From the NCBI RefSeq assembly GCF_015712165.1, contig NZ_JADPZX010000001.1:2666001-2730000 (forward strand): 64,000 nucleotides of DNA, in the 5' to 3' direction. This stretch comes from Streptomyces spinoverrucosus (GTDB lineage: Bacteria > Actinomycetota > Actinomycetes > Streptomycetales > Streptomycetaceae). How positions within the stretch are numbered: position 1 is the first letter of the stretch; every line of letters starts with the position of its first letter. The position numbers were made by a program, and so were the translations under genes. Below, piece after piece: positions 4,260-63,369 of the stretch. The notes below the pieces were generated by a model. That model was not told the origin of the DNA and made no database searches. It saw nothing but the letters and a program-made list of their open reading frames with translations.

Positions 4260-5051
4260 TCAGTGGGCTTCCAGCCCGGCGGAGGCGACGGTGCCCAGCA
4301 CCCGGATGTACGGGCGCCCCTCGTCCCCCGGGGCCGTGATCGTGACGCGGACGCCGTAGACCTCGGCGATCAGGTCCGCGGTGAGCACCTCGGCCGGTGT
4401 GCCCGCGGCCACCACCCGGCCCCGGGTCAGGACGACCAGGCGGTCGCAGTACATCGCGGCGAGGTTCAGGTCGTGCAGCGCCACGACGGAGGTGACGGGG
4501 AGGGCGGCGAGCAGGTCGAGGACGTCGAGTTGGTGCTGGAGGTCGAGGTGGTTGGTGGGTTCGTCGAGGAGGAGTTCGCGGGGTTCCTGGGCCAGCGCGC
4601 GGGCGATCTGGACGCGTTGGCGCTCGCCGCCGGAGAGCGTGTGCCAGGGCTGGTCGGCGCGGTCGGTCAGGCCGGTGCGGGCCAGGGCGCCGCGTACGGC
4701 GTCCTCGTCCGCCGGCGTCGGCGGGGTCCAGGCACGCCGGTGCGGGACGCGGCCGAGTCGTACGACGTCCGCGACCGTCAACTCCACCTGGGTGTCCGCC
4801 TGTTGCTCGACCACGGCGACACGGCGGGCGATGTCCCGGCGGCGCAGGTCGGACAGCGGCCGGCCGTCGAGGGTGACCACGCCGGAGGCGGGGGCGAGGA
4901 CGCCGGACAGCAGGCGCAGCAGGGTGGACTTGCCGGAGCCGTTGGGACCCAGCAGGCCGGTCATGGCGCCGGGCGCCGGTGTGATGCTGACGCCGTCCAG
5001 GATGAGCCGCCCGTCGGCGGTACGGCAGACGCGGTCGGCGGCGAGGGTCAT
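4260..5051 (-). CDS. btuD: ABC transporter ATPase, corrinoid/iron-siderophore type
   Basis: A 263-residue ATPase of the FecE/BtuD type. It has Walker A GPNGSGKS (35-42), Q-loop EQQ, signature LSGGE (139-143), Walker B LLLDEP (160-165) and the switch His in ALHD. It powers the permease encoded just upstream (5186-6208) with the lipoprotein at 6205-7239. A cobalamin riboswitch upstream of that operon makes cobalamin or a corrinoid precursor the likely substrate; the symbol is given on that basis. Its ATG at 5051 is the last of a series of repeated GGGAGGAG...ATGA modules, so its start is coupled to a mini-ORF rather than directly to the permease stop. Confidence 0.85.
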   Translation of the reverse strand: MTLAADRVCRTADGRLILDGVSITPAPGAMTGLLGPNGSGKSTLLRLLSGVLAPASGVVTLDGRPLSDLRRRDIARRVAVVEQQADTQVELTVADVVRLGRVPHRRAWTPPTPADEDAVRGALARTGLTDRADQPWHTLSGGERQRVQIARALAQEPRELLLDEPTNHLDLQHQLDVLDLLAALPVTSVVALHDLNLAAMYCDRLVVLTRGRVVAAGTPAEVLTADLIAEVYGVRVTITAPGDEGRPYIRVLGTVASAGLEAH

Positions 5052-5189
5052 CGAACGCTCCTCCCGGCCGCCCGTACGTAAGTCATCGAACGCTCCTCCC
5101 GGCCGCCCGTACGTAAGTCATCGAACGCTCCTCCCGGCTGCCCGTACGTAAGTCATCGAACGCTCCTCCCGGCTCCGTACGCGAATCAT
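5048..5189 (-). repeat. Array of 35-bp repeats, each an RBS plus ATGA-overlapping 12-codon mini-ORF
   Basis: Between the permease and ATPase genes the ATGA junction has been multiplied. ATGs lie at 5189, 5156, 5121, 5086 and 5051, spaced 33, 35, 35 and 35 bp, each preceded by GGGAGGAG. The ATGs at 5156, 5121 and 5086 each open a 39-nt ORF for MTYVRAAGRSVR. Each of these ends in a TGA (5118-5120, 5083-5085, 5048-5050) that overlaps the next ATG by the ATGA arrangement; the last overlaps the ATPase start. The permease TGA (5186-5188) overlaps the first ATG, whose reading passes in frame through the ATG at 5156. The permease C-terminus (AGRSVR) is itself encoded by this module, suggesting serial duplication of the original coupling junction. 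Confidence 0.9.
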
Positions 5190-6208
5190 CGGACGCTCCT
5201 CCCGGCCCGGTGGGTGCGGTACAGGACCGCGACGAAGGCGGGGACGCCGATCAGGGAGGTCATCACGCCCACCGGGATCTCCAGTGGTTCGAGCAGGGTG
5301 CGGGCGAGGGTGTCGATCCAGACGAGGAAGACCGCGCCGCCCAGTGCGGTGGCCGGCAGCAGGCGGCCGTGGCCGGGGCCGACCAGGGCGCGGGCCGCGT
5401 GCGGCAGCACCAGGCCCACGAAACCGATCGCGCCCGCGCTGCTGACCAGGGCAGCGGTGAGCAGCGCGGTGGCGCTGAGCAGCACCAGGCGGGTACGGGC
5501 GACATGGACGCCGAGCGTGGCCGCCGCGTCCTGCCCGAAGGCGAAGGCGTCCAGCGTCCTGCCGTGGCCGAGGCAGACGGCGAGGACCAGCAGCAGGACG
5601 GCCAGACACAGCCATACGTCCGTCCAGCCCGCGCCGCTGAGCGAGCCGAGCAGCCAGAACAGCACGGCGCGGGTGGTGTCGGCGTCCGCCGAGGTGACCA
5701 CGACGAAGGAGGTGAGCGCCGAGAAGAGCTGCATCGCGGCGACGCCGGACAGCACGACCCGGTCGGTGGTGCCGCCGAGGGTGTGGGCGAGCAGCAGCAT
5801 CAGCGCGAAGGAGCACAGGGCCCCCACGAAGGCGCCGCCGGACAGCGACAGCGCCCCGCCACCCGCGCCGAGCACGACCACGAGGACGGCGCCGGTCGAC
5901 GCGCCGGAGGAGACGCCGAGGACGAAGGGGTCGGCGAGCGGGTTGCGCAGCAGGGACTGCATCACCGCGCCGCACAGGGCCAGTCCGGCGCCGCACACGG
6001 CGGCGAGCAGGGTGCGGGGCAGGCGGAGGTTCCAGACGATGCCGTCGCGGATCGGGGTGAGGCCGGAGGGGTCGCCGCCGAGGTGGGAGGCGACGACCGA
6101 CCACACGTCGGCGACGCCGATGTCGGCCGGGCCGATGGTGAGGGCAACGGCGACGGAGGCCACCAGCACCACCAGGCCTGCCGCGTAGCGCAGCAGAGCC
6201 CCGGTCAC
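5186..6208 (-). CDS. btuC: FecCD/BtuC-family ABC permease
   Basis: A 340-residue polytopic membrane protein with about ten transmembrane helices and the FecCD signature stretches: LRLPRTLLAAVCGAGLALCG, NPLADPFVLGVSSGA and IGFVGLVLPHAAR. It forms the channel of the importer. It starts at GTG 6208, overlapping the substrate-binding-protein stop by GTGA, so the first two genes are translationally coupled. Its own C-terminus YRTHRAGRSVR encodes the GGGAGGAG ribosome binding site that begins the repeat array toward the ATPase gene. The family also moves siderophores and haem; the upstream cobalamin riboswitch decides the substrate assignment. Confidence 0.87.
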   Translation of the reverse strand: MTGALLRYAAGLVVLVASVAVALTIGPADIGVADVWSVVASHLGGDPSGLTPIRDGIVWNLRLPRTLLAAVCGAGLALCGAVMQSLLRNPLADPFVLGVSSGASTGAVLVVVLGAGGGALSLSGGAFVGALCSFALMLLLAHTLGGTTDRVVLSGVAAMQLFSALTSFVVVTSADADTTRAVLFWLLGSLSGAGWTDVWLCLAVLLLVLAVCLGHGRTLDAFAFGQDAAATLGVHVARTRLVLLSATALLTAALVSSAGAIGFVGLVLPHAARALVGPGHGRLLPATALGGAVFLVWIDTLARTLLEPLEIPVGVMTSLIGVPAFVAVLYRTHRAGRSVR

Positions 6209-7239
6209 TTCGCGAGGCCGAAGTCGCGCAGGCCGCGCGCGACCGCCTCGATGCCCTCGACCGTGCGGATGGTCGGGTTCATCGCCTGCCCGCTGAGCAG
6301 GACGTACCGCTTGTGCCGGACGGCGTCCATGTTCCGGGTGACCGGGTTGGTCTCCAGGAACTCGATCTTCTTCGCGGCGCTCTCCGCGGTCTGCGACTTG
6401 CGGGTGAGGTCGCCGATGACGAGCACGTCAGGGTCGCGGTCGGCGACGGTCTCCCAGTTGATCTGGGGCCATTCGTCCGTCGTGTCGTCGAAGACGTTCT
6501 TCGCGCCGACGGCGTTCGTGATGACGCCGGGAGCTCCGCAACAGCCCGCCATGTAGGGGGACTCGGAGTTGGCGAACCAGTACAGGAGGGTGACGTTCGA
6601 GGCGTGGAGGTCCTTCGTGGCGGTGGCAACCCGCGCCTTGAGGTCGGCGACCAGCCTGTCGCCGCGGTCGGCCACCCCGAAGAGGCCGGCCAGATCGCGG
6701 ACCTCGCCGTAGACGGTGTCCATGGTCAGCGGCTCGGTCCGGACGCCGTCGCCGTCGCCGCTGTTGTCCTTGCCCTCGCAGTCCGCCGGGGAGAGGTACG
6801 TGGGCACGCCCAGCTTCTCGAACTGATCGCGTGTGGCCACACCGCCCGTGCCGAGCGTGGAGGCGAACGAGGCGGCCACGAAGTCGGGCTCCCGGTCCAG
6901 GACCGCCTCGAAGGACGGGGCGTTGTCCGCCAGCCGGTCCACCTCGGCGTTCGCCTTCTCCAGGCCCTTCATCACGGGGTCGGTCCAGGTCGCGGTGCCG
7001 ACCATGCGGTCGGCGAGGCCGAGGGAGAGCATGATCTCCGTGGTGCCCTGGTTGAGGGAGACGGCCCGTCGCGGTCCGGCGCCGGTGACCTGCACGGTCC
7101 GCCCGCAGTTCTCGATCGACCGCCCGGTGGCCGACGCCTTGTCGTCAGCCCCGCCGGAGGTTCCGCTTCCGCAGGCGGTGAGCAGGAGCGCTCCGCACAG
7201 CAGCGCGGCGGACAGGGACGTGGTGCGCGTGACGGGCAC
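6205..7239 (-). CDS. btuF: Lipoprotein substrate-binding protein of corrinoid-type ABC importer
   Basis: A 344-residue exported lipoprotein with a lipobox ending LLTAC (Cys 23) and two FepB/BtuF-like lobes joined by a long helix. It binds substrate outside the membrane and passes it to the FecCD permease. It is first in the operon, with a cobalamin riboswitch in its leader (7283-7460). Members of this subfamily have sometimes been labelled a putative F420-0 transporter; the riboswitch argues instead for cobalamin, cobinamide or a related corrinoid. The middle contains a Cys-rich YMAGCCGAPG stretch near the predicted binding cleft, which I cannot interpret. The start at 7239 is the only one that keeps the signal peptide. 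Confidence 0.83.
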   Translation of the reverse strand: MPVTRTTSLSAALLCGALLLTACGSGTSGGADDKASATGRSIENCGRTVQVTGAGPRRAVSLNQGTTEIMLSLGLADRMVGTATWTDPVMKGLEKANAEVDRLADNAPSFEAVLDREPDFVAASFASTLGTGGVATRDQFEKLGVPTYLSPADCEGKDNSGDGDGVRTEPLTMDTVYGEVRDLAGLFGVADRGDRLVADLKARVATATKDLHASNVTLLYWFANSESPYMAGCCGAPGVITNAVGAKNVFDDTTDEWPQINWETVADRDPDVLVIGDLTRKSQTAESAAKKIEFLETNPVTRNMDAVRHKRYVLLSGQAMNPTIRTVEGIEAVARGLRDFGLAK

Positions 7240-20945: not shown

Positions 20946-21452
20946 TTGCGTACCCGCAGGAAGCAACCCGACGTACCGGCCCCGGACATGCCGTGGAACG
21001 AGATCGTGCCTGGTCTGTGGATGGGCGGGCACGAGTTCAAGGGCCATTCGGGGCAGCTGGAGTTCGCCGTCGTCCGGGACGAGTTCGATCTCGTCCAGAC
21101 GCTCCTGCGGCTGCCCGGCCACGGCCCCGACCCGGGCGTCGACCACCAGGTCTGGCCGATCCCGGACGGCCCGCTCGACGGGACCCAGCTGGCCGGGGTG
21201 ATCCGGCTGGCCGAGGCCGCCGGTGACGCGCTGGACCGGGGCCGCCGGGTGCTGGTGCGCTGCTACCACGGCTACAACCGCTCCGGCCTGGTCATCGCGC
21301 ACGCCCTGGTCCGCCGGGGCCGCTCCGTCGAGTCGGCGATCCGGCTGATCCGCGCCCGCCGCTCACCGTGGGCGCTGCACAACGAGCTGTTCGTGGAGTA
21401 TCTGCGGACGGGGCTGCAGACGGTGCGGTTCCTGGAGGAGCTCGCGGAGTAG
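20946..21452 (+). CDS. Dual-specificity/tyrosine phosphatase-like protein
   Basis: A 168-residue protein with the cysteine-phosphatase P-loop CYHGYNRSG (Cys 106, Arg 112: C-x5-R-S/T), an upstream acidic segment VWPIPDG that may hold the general acid, and helices typical of small dual-specificity phosphatases. It probably removes phosphate from proteins, RNA or lipids. I choose TTG 20946, which follows GGGGAGG with good spacing; a GTG at 20925 in the same frame would add seven residues without a close RBS. The last codons form the first half of a 50-bp tandem duplication. Confidence 0.75.
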   Translation: MRTRRKQPDVPAPDMPWNEIVPGLWMGGHEFKGHSGQLEFAVVRDEFDLVQTLLRLPGHGPDPGVDHQVWPIPDGPLDGTQLAGVIRLAEAAGDALDRGRRVLVRCYHGYNRSGLVIAHALVRRGRSVESAIRLIRARRSPWALHNELFVEYLRTGLQTVRFLEELAE

Positions 21453-21537
21453 GCCACCCCTGACCAGGACGCTTACGTACGCAAGGTGAGCTCGCGGAGT
21501 AGGCCGCCCCGGCCAGGACACTTACGTACACAAGGTG
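21438..21537. repeat. 50-bp tandem duplication over the phosphatase stop
   Basis: Two 50-bp copies (21438-21487 and 21488-21537) begin GAGCTCGCGGAGTAGGCC and end CAAGGT, with a few substitutions. The first contains the final codons (ELAE and stop) of the phosphatase gene; the second repeats them without a reading frame and lies just upstream of the lipoprotein gene. Each contains CTTACGTAC, also present in the 35-bp array at 5048-5189. Confidence 0.85.
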
Positions 21538-23688: not shown

Positions 23689-24810
23689 ATGTCCCTGCGC
23701 TCTCCCCGCACCCGTCTCGCCATGACGGCAGCCGCAGGTGCCTTGGCCACCGCGGTGGCGATCTCCCCATCCTTCGCCAGTGCCGTCCTGGGCAACGAAT
23801 CCGGCTCCGGCTCCGGCTCCGGATCCGGCGCCGTTCCCGCCCCCGGCGGCGAAGCCGGCACCGGCACCGTTCCCGCCCCTGTTCCCGGCACCGGCGTCCT
23901 CCCCGTTCCCGGCCTCGGCGTCGGCGGCATCGGCGGCATCGGCGGCTTCGGCGGCTTCGGCGGCTTCGGTCCCGGCTTCGGCGGCTTCGGCCCCGGCTTC
24001 GGCGGCTTCGGCCCCGGCTTCGGCGGCTTCGGCCCCGGCTTTCGTGACCACTTCGGCGGCAACGGTGGCGTCAACGTCTTCGCCGGGAACGGCGGCGTCG
24101 ACGTCTTCGCCGGCAACGGGGTCGACGTCTTCGCCGGGCACGGCGGCCGGGACAACTTCGGCGGCAACGGCAACGGGGGCAACTTCGGCGGAAACGGGAA
24201 CCGGGGCAACTTCAACGGCAACGGCAACTGGGGGGACTTCGGCGGCAACGGCAGCGTCGACGTCTTCGCCGGAAACGGCGGCCGGGACAACTTCGGCGGC
24301 AACGGGAACCGGGGCGACTTCGGCGGCAACGGCGGCGTCGACGTCTTCGCCGGAAACGGCGGCAAGGGCGACTTCGGCGGCAACGGCAACTTCGGCGGAA
24401 ACGGCGGAAACGGCGGCAAGGGCGACTTCGACGGAAACGGCGACTTCGGCGGCGACGGCGGCAACGGCGACTTCGGCGGCATCGGGGACTGGGACGACTT
24501 CGGCGACGGCGGCAGCGCCGACGACGACTTAGGCGGCGACGACAACGGCAACGGCGACAACATTGGCGGCAGCGCCGACTACAGGGGCGTCGTCACCGCC
24601 GGCTCCCTGCTGCTGCGCACGTCACCCACCCAGCGCAGCCGGGCCATCGGCATCGTCGAGCGGGGCGACGAAGTGCGGATCTACTGCAAGGCACCGGGCC
24701 AGCGAGTGCGGGGCAACCCCCTCTGGTACCTCCTCCAGGGCAACCGCACCTGGGCCTGGGGACCCGCCCGCTACATCAACAACATCGGGCCCGCGCCACG
24801 CTGGTGCTGA
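23689..24810 (+). CDS. Secreted Gly/Asn/Phe-repeat protein with C-terminal SH3-like domain
   Basis: A 373-residue exported protein (signal peptide about 1-31, ending SFASA). After SG and PAPV linkers come GGFGGFGPGF repeats (about 80-118), then about 170 residues of FGGNG/NFGGNGN/VDVFAGNGG repeats rich in Gly, Asn, Asp and Phe. A bacterial SH3-like domain (about 295-373) follows, containing GSLLLRTSPTQRSRAIG, WYLLQGNRTWAWGPARY and two Cys. SH3 domains of this kind usually bind cell-wall peptide. The repeat tract is low-complexity and should be disordered and sticky. ATG 23689 has GGGAGG upstream. I know no function for this architecture; a wall-anchored adhesive or surface matrix protein is a guess. 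Confidence 0.8.
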   Translation: MSLRSPRTRLAMTAAAGALATAVAISPSFASAVLGNESGSGSGSGSGAVPAPGGEAGTGTVPAPVPGTGVLPVPGLGVGGIGGIGGFGGFGGFGPGFGGFGPGFGGFGPGFGGFGPGFRDHFGGNGGVNVFAGNGGVDVFAGNGVDVFAGHGGRDNFGGNGNGGNFGGNGNRGNFNGNGNWGDFGGNGSVDVFAGNGGRDNFGGNGNRGDFGGNGGVDVFAGNGGKGDFGGNGNFGGNGGNGGKGDFDGNGDFGGDGGNGDFGGIGDWDDFGDGGSADDDLGGDDNGNGDNIGGSADYRGVVTAGSLLLRTSPTQRSRAIGIVERGDEVRIYCKAPGQRVRGNPLWYLLQGNRTWAWGPARYINNIGPAPRWC

Positions 24811-36206: not shown

Positions 36207-39200
36207 CTGCTTGCCTCCTCGACGGTGCCCCCCGTGGATTCTTCGGCATGTGCGTGTGCGCGGTCGGTCTCCGCGGCGGCGGCGCGGGTCGTCGCGTCCG
36301 GTGCCGGGGTGGACGGTGTCGCGGTCTGGCCGGTGTGCTCGGCGATCTCCGCCTCGACGTCCCGCCGGCCGGCCTCGGCGCCCCGGCGGAAGCCGCCCAG
36401 GCGGCGGCGCAGGGCATCGGCGTCAACGGATCCGGTGCGCGGCCGGGGCGCCGACGCGGGCGCGTTGATCTTCGGCGTGCGCTTGGGCAGCCCCTTGTCG
36501 GTGACGATCTCGGGCTCGTCCCCCTCGTCGGGGGTGCGCTCGTGGGTGTCGGGGCCGATGGCGTAGGGGTCGGCGGGAGCGGAGGACACCACCGGCTCCG
36601 GGGCCGGGGTCGACACGGAGGCCGGGACCGGGGCCTGGTCGGCCGCCCTGTCCCGGGCCTGCTCATCGCCCGGGGCACGCCCGGCGTCCGGACCCTGCTC
36701 GGCCGTCCACTCCGACGCACGCCCGGCGTCCGCGGCTTGCGCGGCTATCGGCTCCGGGGCACGCCCGGCGCCCGCACCCTGCTCAGCCGACGATTCCCGG
36801 TCCTGGTCGGCATCCGATCCCTGGACCGCCGTCCGCTCCGACGCATGCCCAGCGCCCGGACCCTGCTCGGCCGTCCACTCCGACGCACGCCCGACGCCCG
36901 AACCCTGCTCAGCCGTCCACTCGGCCGCACGCCCGGCGTTCGGATCCTGCTCGGCTGACTCCGACGCACGCCCGGCGACCGCACTCGACCCGGCCGACGC
37001 GTCCCGGCCCTTCACGGCCGACCTCTCCCGGACCTGCGCGGCCGAGGCCGCCCCGCCCTGGTCAGGCGAAGCCGCCCCGCCCTGTTCGGCAGGTCGCTGC
37101 TCGGGTCGCTCGGTGGTCTGGGGAGTGGTGGGCTCGCTCGGCTGTTCCGGGACCAGGAGCTCCATCGTGGTCTCGGCCGGAGACTCCGGGGCGCCCTGCG
37201 CGCGGACGGCGCGCTCCGCCAGCGCCACCAGCGGGTCGCCGTTCTCCGAGCGGCCGTGCAGGACGTTGGAGTTGGCCTCCGCGTCCGCGCCGGGCAGCGA
37301 GAAGCTGTGCGGGCCCTCGGAGAGGGACGCGGGCGTGGGCGACGGGACGGCGGCCGACGGGGCCTCGGCGAGCAGCGACTCGGGCAGGACCACGACCGCC
37401 GCGATGCCGCCCTGCTTCTGCTCACGCAGCTGCACACGCACACCGTGCCGGTGGGCGAGCCGGGCCACGACGTAGAGGCCGAGCCCGAGACCGTCCTCGC
37501 CCTCCTGGTCGTACGGCGACTCGGGGTCGAAGTCGGCGAGCCGGGCGTTGAGCCGGGTCATCCGCTCCTCGGTCATGCCGATGCCCTCGTCATGGACGGA
37601 GAGCATCACCTCGCCGTTCTCCAGCAGCCAGCCGGAGACCTCGACGGGCACGTCGGGCGGCGAGAACGAGGTGGCGTTCTCCATGAGTTCGGCCAGCAGG
37701 TGGGACAGGTCGTCCGCGGCGAACCCGGCGATGTGCGCGTGCGGCGGCAACGCGGTGATCCGGACCCGCTCGTACCGCTCGATCTCGCTGACCGCGGCCC
37801 GTACGACGTCGACCATCGGGACCGGGCTCGCGTGCTGCTGGACGTGCTCGGTACCGGCCAGCACCAGGAGGTTCTCGCTGTGCCGGCGCATCACGGTGGC
37901 GAAGTGGTCGAGCTTGAAGAGCGTGGCGAGCCGTTCGGGGTCCTGCTCGCGCTCCTCCAGCCCCTCGATGACGCCGAGCTGACGCTCGACCAGGCCGAGG
38001 GTGCGCAGCGCGAGGTTGACGAAGGTGCCGCCGATGCTGTCGCGCAGCCGCTCCAGCTGGGCGGCGGAGTCGGCGAGTTCGGCGCGCAGCTCCTCGCGGG
38101 CGTCGGCCATCTTCTGCCGCTGGCCGACCAGGTGTTTGCGGTCGCCCTCCAGGGTGGCGATCCGCTCGTGCAGGGCGACGGCGTGCGCGTGCAGGGCATT
38201 GACGGAGCGGACGACCTGGGCGAACTCGTCGTTGCGGCCGGTGAACTTGACCGGTTCCTCGGCGGCCGGGTCCTCGGCGGCGGCCAGCCGGGCGGAGCCG
38301 AGGCGCAGCACGGCGAGCGGGCGGGTGAGGCCGCGGGCCATGCCGGTGGCGACGCCGACGGCGAGCAGCATCAGGGCGCCGAGGATCGCGATGCGGATCT
38401 CCAGCGCGGTGACGTCGTCGTCGCGCAGCTGCTCCAGGGCGGTGGTGCGGCGCTCGTAGAGGGAGGACTCGACGCCGCGCATCAGGTCGATACGGGCGGT
38501 CAGGGCGGCGTTCAGCTTGTCGGCGCTGGTGCCGAGGTCCTCGTCGGAGAGGGTGGGCTCGTCGGTGAGGCCGGCGAGGTACTTGTCGGCGGAGTTGACC
38601 TCGGGTCCGGTGACCGTGGAGTCGTAGGTGCCGCGGGCGGCCTTGGTGGCCGTGTCGTGGAAGTCGGCGAGCGCGGAGTCGGAGCGCAGCCGGGCCTGCT
38701 GGGCGGCGGCGGTGAGGGCGGCACGCTGCTTGCTGTCGGCCTCGGAGGAGACGCTGGTCTCGGTGGGCAGACCGGTGATGGGGTCGTAGACCGTCTGGGT
38801 GCTGCTGGGCACGCTGAGGGCGGCCAGGAGCAGGCCCCGGGTGGCGGCGGCCTGCTGGACGGCGGTGTCGAGCTCGGCGAGGGCGTAGGCGCCGGAGCCC
38901 GCGCGGGGCGGGAGCTGTTCGGCGAGGTCCTCCGCGAGCCGGTGGAGTTCGGCGATGGCGTCGGAGTAGGCCTCGTGCGCTTCGAGAGCGGTGCTCTGCC
39001 CGGTGAGCGCCGCTCTGCGCACGGTCGCGATGCCGTCCAGGTCCGAGCGCAGCCCGGCCGGGGTGTCGGTGTTGGCGCGCAACTCCTCGACCTGCCGGTC
39101 GACACGTGCGCTGCGCTGCTCGGAGGGCGCCTTGGACTTGGGCCGGCCGGCCGCGATGTAGGAGGTGACCTCGTCCCGCTCGTCCGCGAGGGAGTGGGCG

Positions 39201-55817: not shown

Positions 55818-56216
55818 GCGCCGGGGGCCGGGGCCTCGCCAGACGGCACCCTCATCCGCGGGCCCGGCCTGGCGGGGCCGACCACGGGCAGACCCTGCCT
55901 GCGGGGCCGGACCTGGCCGAGGGACGGCGCCCCTCCTCCGCAAGGCCCAGCCTGGCGGGGCTGGCCGGGGACAACCTTGCCCGCGGGGCCGGGCCTGGCG
56001 GGGCAAGCCGGGAGCAAACCCTGCCCGTGAGGCCGGGCCGGGCCTGGCCGCCAGACGGCACCCTCATCCGCGGGCCCGGCCTGGCGGGGCCGACCGGGTG
56101 CAAACCTTGCCTGCGAGGCCCCGCCTGGCGGGCGAGGGTGCCTTTGCCCGTGGCCCGCGTAGGCCCGGCGGGGCCGACCGCCGGTCATGGTGGGGCGAGC
56201 CTCAACCCGCCCCCGC
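55818..56216. repeat. GC-rich repeat block between convergent genes
   Basis: About 400 bases of diverged copies of a GGCCCGGCCTGGCGGGGCCGACC unit; the core is given here only as GGCCTGGCGGGGC. A 46-bp segment beginning GCCAGACGGCACC and ending GGGGCCGACC is repeated exactly at 55838-55883 and 56050-56095. The open frame on the minus strand (55739-56188) encodes only Gly/Pro/Arg repeats without a ribosome binding site and is not called. The block separates the PadR gene and the Clp-N gene, both ending at its edges. Confidence 0.8.
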
Positions 56217-62969: not shown

Positions 62970-63335
62970 CGCTGAGAAGGGGGCGGTGGGGACTTTCCGG
63001 ACCGCCGCCGAGAAGGGGACGGTGGGAACTTCCCGGACCGCCGCCGAGAAGGGGACGGTGGGAACTTCCCGGACCGCCGCCGAGAAGGGGGCGGAGGGAA
63101 CTTCCCGGACCGCCGCTGAGAAGGGGGCGGTGGGGACTTTCCGGACCGCCGCCGAGAAGGGGACGGTGGGAACTTCCCGGACCGCCGCTGAGAAGGGGGC
63201 GGAGGGAACTTCCCGGACCGCCGCTGAGAAGGGGACGGTGGGGATTTTCCGGACCGCCGCTGAAAAAGGGGCGGTCCGGATCTCTCCCTACCGCCGCTGA
63301 AAATGGGGCGATACGGGCTTTCCGGACCCCCGCTG
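62970..63335. repeat. 36-bp tandem repeat tract
   Basis: About eight well-preserved 36-bp units from 62970 (starts at 62970, 63006, 63042, 63078, 63114, 63150, 63186 and 63222), then two or three degenerate ones. The unit runs CGC(C/T)GAGAAGGGG..GG, then GGGAACTTCCCGGACCGC; GGGAACTTCCC is a palindrome, so each unit can fold. An open frame with a 12-residue unit (GTSRTAAEKGTV) follows from the length but has no RBS and is not called. It begins six bases after the ATPase stop. Confidence 0.9.
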
Positions 63336-63369
63336 AAAATGGGCGGTACGGAGAGATCCGTGCCGCCCC
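63268..63369. terminator. Long inverted repeat between convergent genes
   Basis: The segment 63268-63287 (GGGGCGGTCCGGATCTCTCC) pairs with 63350-63369 at 18 of 20 positions. It encloses the degenerate end of the 36-bp tract and lies just before the convergent methyltransferase gene end, a probable bidirectional stop. Confidence 0.6.

Follow-up and report, generated by a model that had tools for sequence, protein, structure and literature searches.

The junction between a permease gene and an ATPase gene of Streptomyces spinoverrucosus contains five tandem start-stop sites. This array probably arose when an ordinary ATGA stop-start junction was amplified in tandem at this locus, and it probably acts as a termination-reinitiation relay; the duplicated stretch would consist of the permease end, the Shine-Dalgarno (SD) sequence, and the ATGA. 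Arrays of the same architecture recur in the genus, and their periods are biased toward 3n-1 bp, a bias absent from a control in which ATGC takes the place of ATGA.

Organization of the permease-ATPase junction

The window, i.e., the whole stretch of 64,000 nucleotides that was analysed, carries on its minus strand an operon with the order binding protein, FecCD permease, and ABC ATPase, which is that of an FecCD-type ABC importer. The features referred to below are as follows.

6205-7239, minus strand: substrate-binding protein gene (Peripla_BP_2, from profile matches), upstream neighbour of the permease gene
5186-6208, minus strand: FecCD-family permease gene, 340 codons, C-terminus ...RAGRSVR, TGA within the first ATGA
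5157-5189, minus strand: repeat unit 1, 33 bp, diverged, without its own stop (read from the sequence)
5122-5156, minus strand: repeat unit 2, 35 bp, with one base difference from units 3 and 4 that is silent in the mini-ORF
5087-5121, minus strand: repeat unit 3, 35 bp
5052-5086, minus strand: repeat unit 4, 35 bp
5118-5189, minus strand: putatively translated mini-ORF 1, MIRVRSREERSMTYVRAAGRSVR, 23 codons, with ATG2 (5156) inside in frame
5083-5121, minus strand: mini-ORF 2, MTYVRAAGRSVR, 12 codons
5048-5086, minus strand: mini-ORF 3, MTYVRAAGRSVR, 12 codons, TGA overlapping the ATPase ATG
4260-5051, minus strand: ABC transporter ATPase gene (ABC_tran), starting at the last ATG of the array

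The top NCBIfam models for the ATPase were those of F420-0 and EitC-type ATPases, both under their cut-offs. At the junction between the binding protein and the permease (6205-7239 / 6208), an ordinary single GTGA overlap is found. The permease-ATPase junction, read on the minus strand, contains five GGGAGGAG-N6-ATGA sites, with ATGs at 5189, 5156, 5121, 5086, and 5051 and GGGAGGAG starting at 5203, 5170, 5135, 5100, and 5065; the gap between SD and ATG is 6 nt at all five, and the ATG-to-ATG spacings are 33, 35, 35, and 35 bp. Tandem Repeats Finder reported the array at 5047-5207 with a period of 35, 4.7 copies, and a score of 266. Specifically, units 2 to 4 encode MTYVRAAGRSVR, and the TGA of each overlaps the following ATG, while mini-ORF 1 reads through ATG2 in frame and stops at the TGA overlapping ATG3. 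The four repeat units thus comprise three successive mini-ORFs (23, 12, and 12 codons), with ATG2 as an optional internal start. The ends encoded by the units match the last permease residues, AGRSVR. An earlier note on this DNA had described a chain of 35-bp units, each with 12 codons and a TGA overlapping the next ATG; this description holds for units 2 to 4, but unit 1 is 33 bp long, diverged, and lacks a stop. Its further claim that the unit length preserves the relay is borne out for the array as a whole, since units 1 and 2 together measure 68 bp, which is 3n-1: because 33 + 35 = 68 = 3 x 23 - 1, the relay leads without a break from the permease to the ATPase (5189, 5121, 5086, 5051), and all four of these hand-overs are ATGA with GGGAGGAG.

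In the mechanism that we propose, a ribosome would end the permease at the TGA in ATGA number 1, restart at the overlapping ATG, and make a 23-residue peptide; it would then restart at 5121, at 5086, and finally at the ATPase ATG at 5051. It would be the reading frame that counts, and the peptides themselves probably serve no end as products. Duplications of 3n-1 bp, or several that sum to 3n-1, would be tolerated, with the ribosome being passed on; those of 3n would lengthen the downstream protein, and those of 3n+1 would send the ribosome out of frame, so that duplications of this length would mostly be lost. We infer that at this locus the mini-ORFs are translated and the same ribosome is handed on, and that the effect on the ATPase level is near-neutral. 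The strong SD before 5051 would also allow independent initiation of the ATPase.

The same junction in relatives

The junction was compared in 29 relatives (from a search of 295 genomes), which were read base by base, and in 80 named relatives, nearly all of them Streptomyces; some species were common to both sets. The usual state in the relatives read was a single ATGA or GTGA. In 79 of the 80 named relatives the gap length is divisible by 3, which puts the ATPase in the frame of the first coupling site: translation beginning at the upstream stop would lead into the conserved ATPase part, whether or not an N-terminal extension is present. Tandem copies of the start site, defined by a 12-base criterion, occurred in four of the 80 (L062, L064, L095, and L096), none of them with a 3n+1 period. 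The copies in L062, L064, and L095 are in frame with the ATPase; in Streptomyces justiciae (L096) they lie 44 bp apart, in relay phase, and form a second, independent relay. Aligning the junction across relatives and counting units had been proposed in the earlier note, and this comparison found the chain absent from the 29 and the 80 relatives except for the single unit of L096. The array of the window appears to be derived, and its junction seems prone to duplication.

No closer relative with the same array was found among the matches listed in a search of 61 genomes or among the 29 relatives read base by base. The only listed match of the 61-genome search that spans the array region came from G032, at 74%, and its junction (L003) has no relay; the remaining listed matches covered only the flanks. 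An exact tandem pair of units was absent from the GTDB contigs, a collection from which the own genome was possibly left out. A plasmid origin was considered and dropped, as the best plasmid match, at about 72%, covered 80% of the combined permease and ATPase and was of no use for the array. In the orthologues L003, L004, L125, L130, and L137, the ATPase has a long N-terminal extension that is repeat-like by eye, an in-frame outcome at the same junction.

Recurrence and period phase in the genus

To describe the class, 392 genomes of the genus were surveyed for two SD-ATGA sites 26 to 56 bp apart, with an SD spacer of 6 or 5 nt, and the period was assigned phase 2 (3n-1), phase 1 (3n+1), or phase 0 (3n). 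A pair was called a duplication if 5 of 6 or 4 of 5 spacer bases were identical, and because of this spacer-identity criterion the duplicate set mixes old and new duplications. The spacer-6 pattern matched in 118 of the 392 genomes versus 10 for the reversed pattern, and the spacer-5 pattern in 70 versus 5. The own genome gave four spacer-6 matches, the number expected from the four neighbouring pairs of the array, and no spacer-5 matches.

Of the 49 duplicated spacer-5 loci, 37 were in phase 2, five in phase 0, and five in phase 1, with two mixed. The phase counts for spacer 6 come from 150 matches listed out of a larger number; among them, 41 duplicated loci comprised 16 in phase 2, 16 in phase 0, five in phase 1, and four mixed. 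Pooled over both spacers, phase 2 accounted for 53 of 84 unmixed loci among the matches listed (binomial test against 1/3, p=2e-8), and the ratio of phase 2 to phase 1 was 53:10. For spacer 6 alone, phase 2 (16/37 among the matches listed) did not differ significantly from one third (p=0.14). Some loci were classed by the script against our own reading, such as G122, which has relay steps of 17 bp and was entered as phase 1; this makes the count conservative.

If the relay is the reason for this bias, it should vanish with C as the fourth base, where no stop overlaps the start, and it does vanish. In the ATGC control, phase 2 was found in 4 of 23 unmixed loci among the matches listed, phase 1 in 4, and phase 0 in 15; this control is small, several of the 15 phase-0 loci belong to one repeat family in G218, and for G218 (24 matches) only the first places, among the matches listed, were used. 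Phase 2 differed between ATGA and ATGC with p=1e-4 (Fisher's exact test), and a comparison confined to phases 2 and 1 gave a modest difference (53:10 versus 4:4 among the matches listed, p=0.04). Note that in the ATGC control the reversed pattern occurred in more genomes than the pattern itself (36/392); the reversed pattern is an imperfect null, and the phase comparison is the better test. The ATGC matches also include a 33- to 34-bp repeat, GGAGRCCCCATGCCTCGG..., which stands in tandem at several places in G218 and G290 and looks dispersed rather than like a relay.

Since 3n-1 and 3n+1 duplications differ only for a ribosome that restarts at the upstream ATG, the ratio of 53:10 argues that restarts happen and matter; the argument comes from the class rather than from this locus and does not imply passage of the same ribosome. 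It also suggests selection, which would remove duplications that break the hand-over, as the cause of the bias. The repeated ribosome restarts postulated in the earlier note thereby gain indirect support, from the 3n-1 bias, its absence in the ATGC control, and mini-ORF lengths that step by three.

Pairs not called duplications had phases 0/1/2 of 77/9/16 for spacer 6 (n=102, among the matches listed), much of which looks coding, and of 8/8/21 for spacer 5 (n=37). A replicate with GTGA matched in 76 of 199 genomes versus 20 of 199 for the reversed pattern; of its 129 matches, 119 were entered, the other ten being second rows of entered arrays or non-duplicates by eye. The resulting 54 loci (22 in phase 2, 19 in phase 0, seven in phase 1, and six mixed) point in the same direction more weakly, with phase 2 in 22 of 48 unmixed loci, a borderline result (p=0.048). 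A class-wide search matched in 22 of 256 genomes; the 21 matches outside the genus contained six duplications, of which four were in phase 2, one in phase 0, and one in phase 1. The own genome has a second 35-bp tandem start-stop unit, of GTGA type (L283, C1:7548295-7548343, plus strand), with the mini-peptide VTRAVVQDGRSP; a 374-codon ORF starts at its last GTG, but the ORF that ends at the first GTGA has only 44 codons.

Gene context of the arrays

For rows with flanking DNA, upstream ORFs of 60 codons or more that end at RTGA were sought, and the chain of stop and overlapping start was followed to see whether it reached a downstream ORF, again of 60 codons or more. All 48 duplicated spacer-6 rows were included, many non-duplicated spacer-6 rows were left out, and one non-duplicated row (G040) was read from the identical stretch of G212. 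The 77 anchored duplicated rows (76 arrays, with G112 giving two) comprised 63 relays, 11 extensions of the downstream protein, and three broken cases; 17 further duplicated rows had no upstream ORF of this kind. Anchored pairs not called duplications were likewise mostly relays (22, with eight extensions and four broken), and part of the class may therefore be unrelated mini-ORFs or old duplications. When the flanking proteins were grouped by homology, the anchored duplicated loci fell into 57 clusters, of which 36 contained strict relays only, seven relays via another start only, seven extensions only, and three broken cases only, with four being mixed.

Chains of four to eight steps are present elsewhere, and many loci have a single extra unit only. 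Among the longer ones, G070 has five units of 41 bp leading from an FtsX-type permease to an ABC ATPase, G104 has four of 14 bp from an ABC ATPase to an ABC-2 permease, G122 has four of 17 bp, and G314 has four of 17 bp between a sensor kinase and a response regulator (Pfam), the latter in one homology cluster with the regulators of eleven other array loci. Units of 35 bp, as in the window, were found in G280 and G112, and G284 has one 35-bp unit between an FecCD permease and an ATPase, a gene pair of the window's kind.

Origin and conservation of the units

In many arrays the beginning of the mini-peptide resembles that of the downstream protein and its end that of the upstream one, as in G268 (...DEERT / MTVRTGGERT / MTVRVL) and G228 (...LFQEPV / MNQEPA / MNQSDP). 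Units were scored as a prefix from the downstream start plus a suffix from the upstream end, with the flanks of other loci as the control; relay loci with a step above 60 bp, or in which no step matched the array period, 14 or 17, were left out. For 95 units the median identity was 0.78 versus 0.53 for swapped flanks, and 38% versus 1% reached at least 0.85. A junction that was itself duplicated in tandem would leave such a prefix-plus-suffix pattern. The window units are explained to only 69-79% by their own two flanks; the right half is the permease end, and the left half has no clear source in either flank.

Five orthologous kinase-regulator junctions, whose regulators are 89-98% identical, have units of 29, 29, 29, 32, and 35 bp; one of them, G375, was aligned over two thirds only and comes from a 55% complete genome. 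At three orthologous FtsX-ABC junctions with flanking proteins 94-99% identical, five mini-ORFs are present in G070, one in G313, and one in G179, as had been anticipated in the earlier note, according to which the copy number could vary. With unit lengths changing by threes, as a translated frame would, and copy numbers of 5, 1, and 1, the frame is held while the copy number moves. A counter-example is G144, which is broken by the script's rule and is orthologous to G234, G286, and G169; in-frame extensions also occur inside orthologous sets (G117, G102, G016, and G375 L156). A hypervariable orthologous junction between genes of about 323 and about 640 codons (L171, L172, L177, L161, and L170) has periods of 14, 26, 27, 29, or 35 bp depending on the species, mostly relays and one in frame.

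Alternative explanations

FecCD transporters are expected to need permease and ATPase at 1:1, and for this reason no obvious gain is seen for the idea that the array serves as a dosage dial, to which the subunit ratio suggested in the earlier note belongs and in which each unit changes the fraction of ribosomes reaching the ATPase and slippage makes the copy number tunable. Copy numbers that differ between near-identical orthologous junctions, and the chains of many steps, speak for such a dial; the many loci with a single extra unit, and the relatives that, save for the one unit of L096, manage without a chain at the window junction, speak against it. We regard such a dial, acting by loss at each restart or by gain via extra SD sites, as possible but rather unlikely. 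The duplication could also be inert, with the mini-ORFs untranslated and the ATPase initiated on its own at 5051 by the SD in front of it. A full SD (GGGAGGAG, 6-nt spacing) does lie right before 5051, but phase should then be irrelevant, in conflict with the ratios in ATGA and ATGC among the matches listed, which renders an inert array distinctly unlikely.

A DNA or RNA control element, i.e., an iterated operator, a hairpin, or an internal promoter, appears very improbable. Units 2 to 4 contain a TACGTA palindrome; however, a DNA element has no need of the 3n-1 phase, and neither a sigma-70-like site nor a terminator was found in a search that covers Streptomyces promoters poorly. The array RNA was less folded than 198 of 200 shuffles (z=+2.2), leaving an RNA hairpin or attenuator unsupported; the predicted weak folding fits an open translated stretch and not hairpin control. 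A further candidate is an element, dispersed or mobile, whose target would be start codons, in the manner of the mycobacterial interspersed repetitive units (MIRUs) discussed below. The array shares with MIRUs the -4 coupling at both ends and the 3n-1 length, yet the unit occurs at one place in its genome (a 201-bp array query hit a single place), the exact tandem pair is missing from the GTDB contigs mentioned above, and units of other arrays look like the flanks beside which they lie; we consider such an element highly improbable. An assembly artefact is scarcely credible: the array is known from assembled sequence alone, but its units differ among themselves, the genome is in five contigs with a completeness of 100, and the same architecture is found in other assemblies. 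Local amplification of the junction, acting as a relay, is the reading that we prefer.

Relation to known systems

Translational coupling at ATGA is textbook knowledge. A single ATGA or GTGA is also what the relatives read usually have at this locus; the known case is one hand-over between two genes, whereas the array forms a chain. The closest repeats described are MIRUs, one repeat family spread over many loci. A review presents them as gene-junction repeats whose unit ORF is coupled at -4 nt, and its authors take them for insertions that affect expression little and appear to be mobile (PMC12548453); for the senX3-regX3 MIRU, another paper gives units of 77 and 53 bp (PMC4213456), both of which are 3n-1 by our reading. 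The statement in the earlier note that no such case had been described was accordingly too strong. Compared by description with these accounts, the window units resemble MIRUs in lying in a gene junction, in having ORF ends that overlap their neighbours by 4 nt, and in their 3n-1 lengths (35, 35, 35, and 33 + 35 = 68), and the G314 array, like that of senX3-regX3, lies between a sensor kinase and a response regulator. They differ in that no dispersed copies of the window unit were found in its genome, and in that the arrays described here differ between loci, have steps of mostly 14 to 56 bp, and are in many cases like copies of their own junction.

For leader peptides and upstream ORFs, reinitiation by which a short ORF brings ribosomes to the next gene has been proposed; the survey concerned allows a single leader for each gene and does not deal with structural genes that overlap (Korolev 2016, PMC4833913). 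Here, several mini-ORFs are chained between two structural genes. A word search of the main texts of two genome-wide coupling papers (PMC6728339 and PMC10666635) found none of the words tandem, repeat, and short ORF. Titles and the starts of abstracts gave nothing on short, locally made SD-ATGA arrays or on a period bias, most subscription journals being outside the scope of this search. Because no such description was obtained, we take the recurrence and the frame bias to be new; coupling and MIRU-type junction repeats had already been described.

Implications

How a terminating ribosome reaches the next start, i.e., whether the same ribosome continues or the start is unfolded, is still debated according to the abstract of the above review (PMC12548453). 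Natural chains of two to eight hand-overs, orthologues that vary in copy number, and the frame bias provide direct test material for coupling. The findings point to reading frame as a filter on the tandem duplications that arise at gene junctions, and they speak for annotating very short ORFs of the relay kind. It is conceivable, if rather unlikely, that the actinomycete relay arrays constitute a recurrent, slippage-driven setting of ribosome passage from gene to gene within an operon, with copy number as the dial and 3n-1 as the rule; if true, they would be a translational counterpart of phase-variable promoter repeats.

Other repeats in the window

The window contains further tandem repeats. 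A 36-bp array with 10.5 copies and 85% matches lies at 62970-63347, and arrays with periods of 42/84 bp and 43/44/82 bp lie at 36675-36984 and 55842-56132, respectively. A 49-bp tandem duplication at 21438-21537 contains CTTACGTAC, nine bases common to the relay units, probably by coincidence. A long repeat stretch with periods of 9 to 81 bp extends over 23807-24589 and perhaps encodes, in frame, a putative glycine-rich protein.
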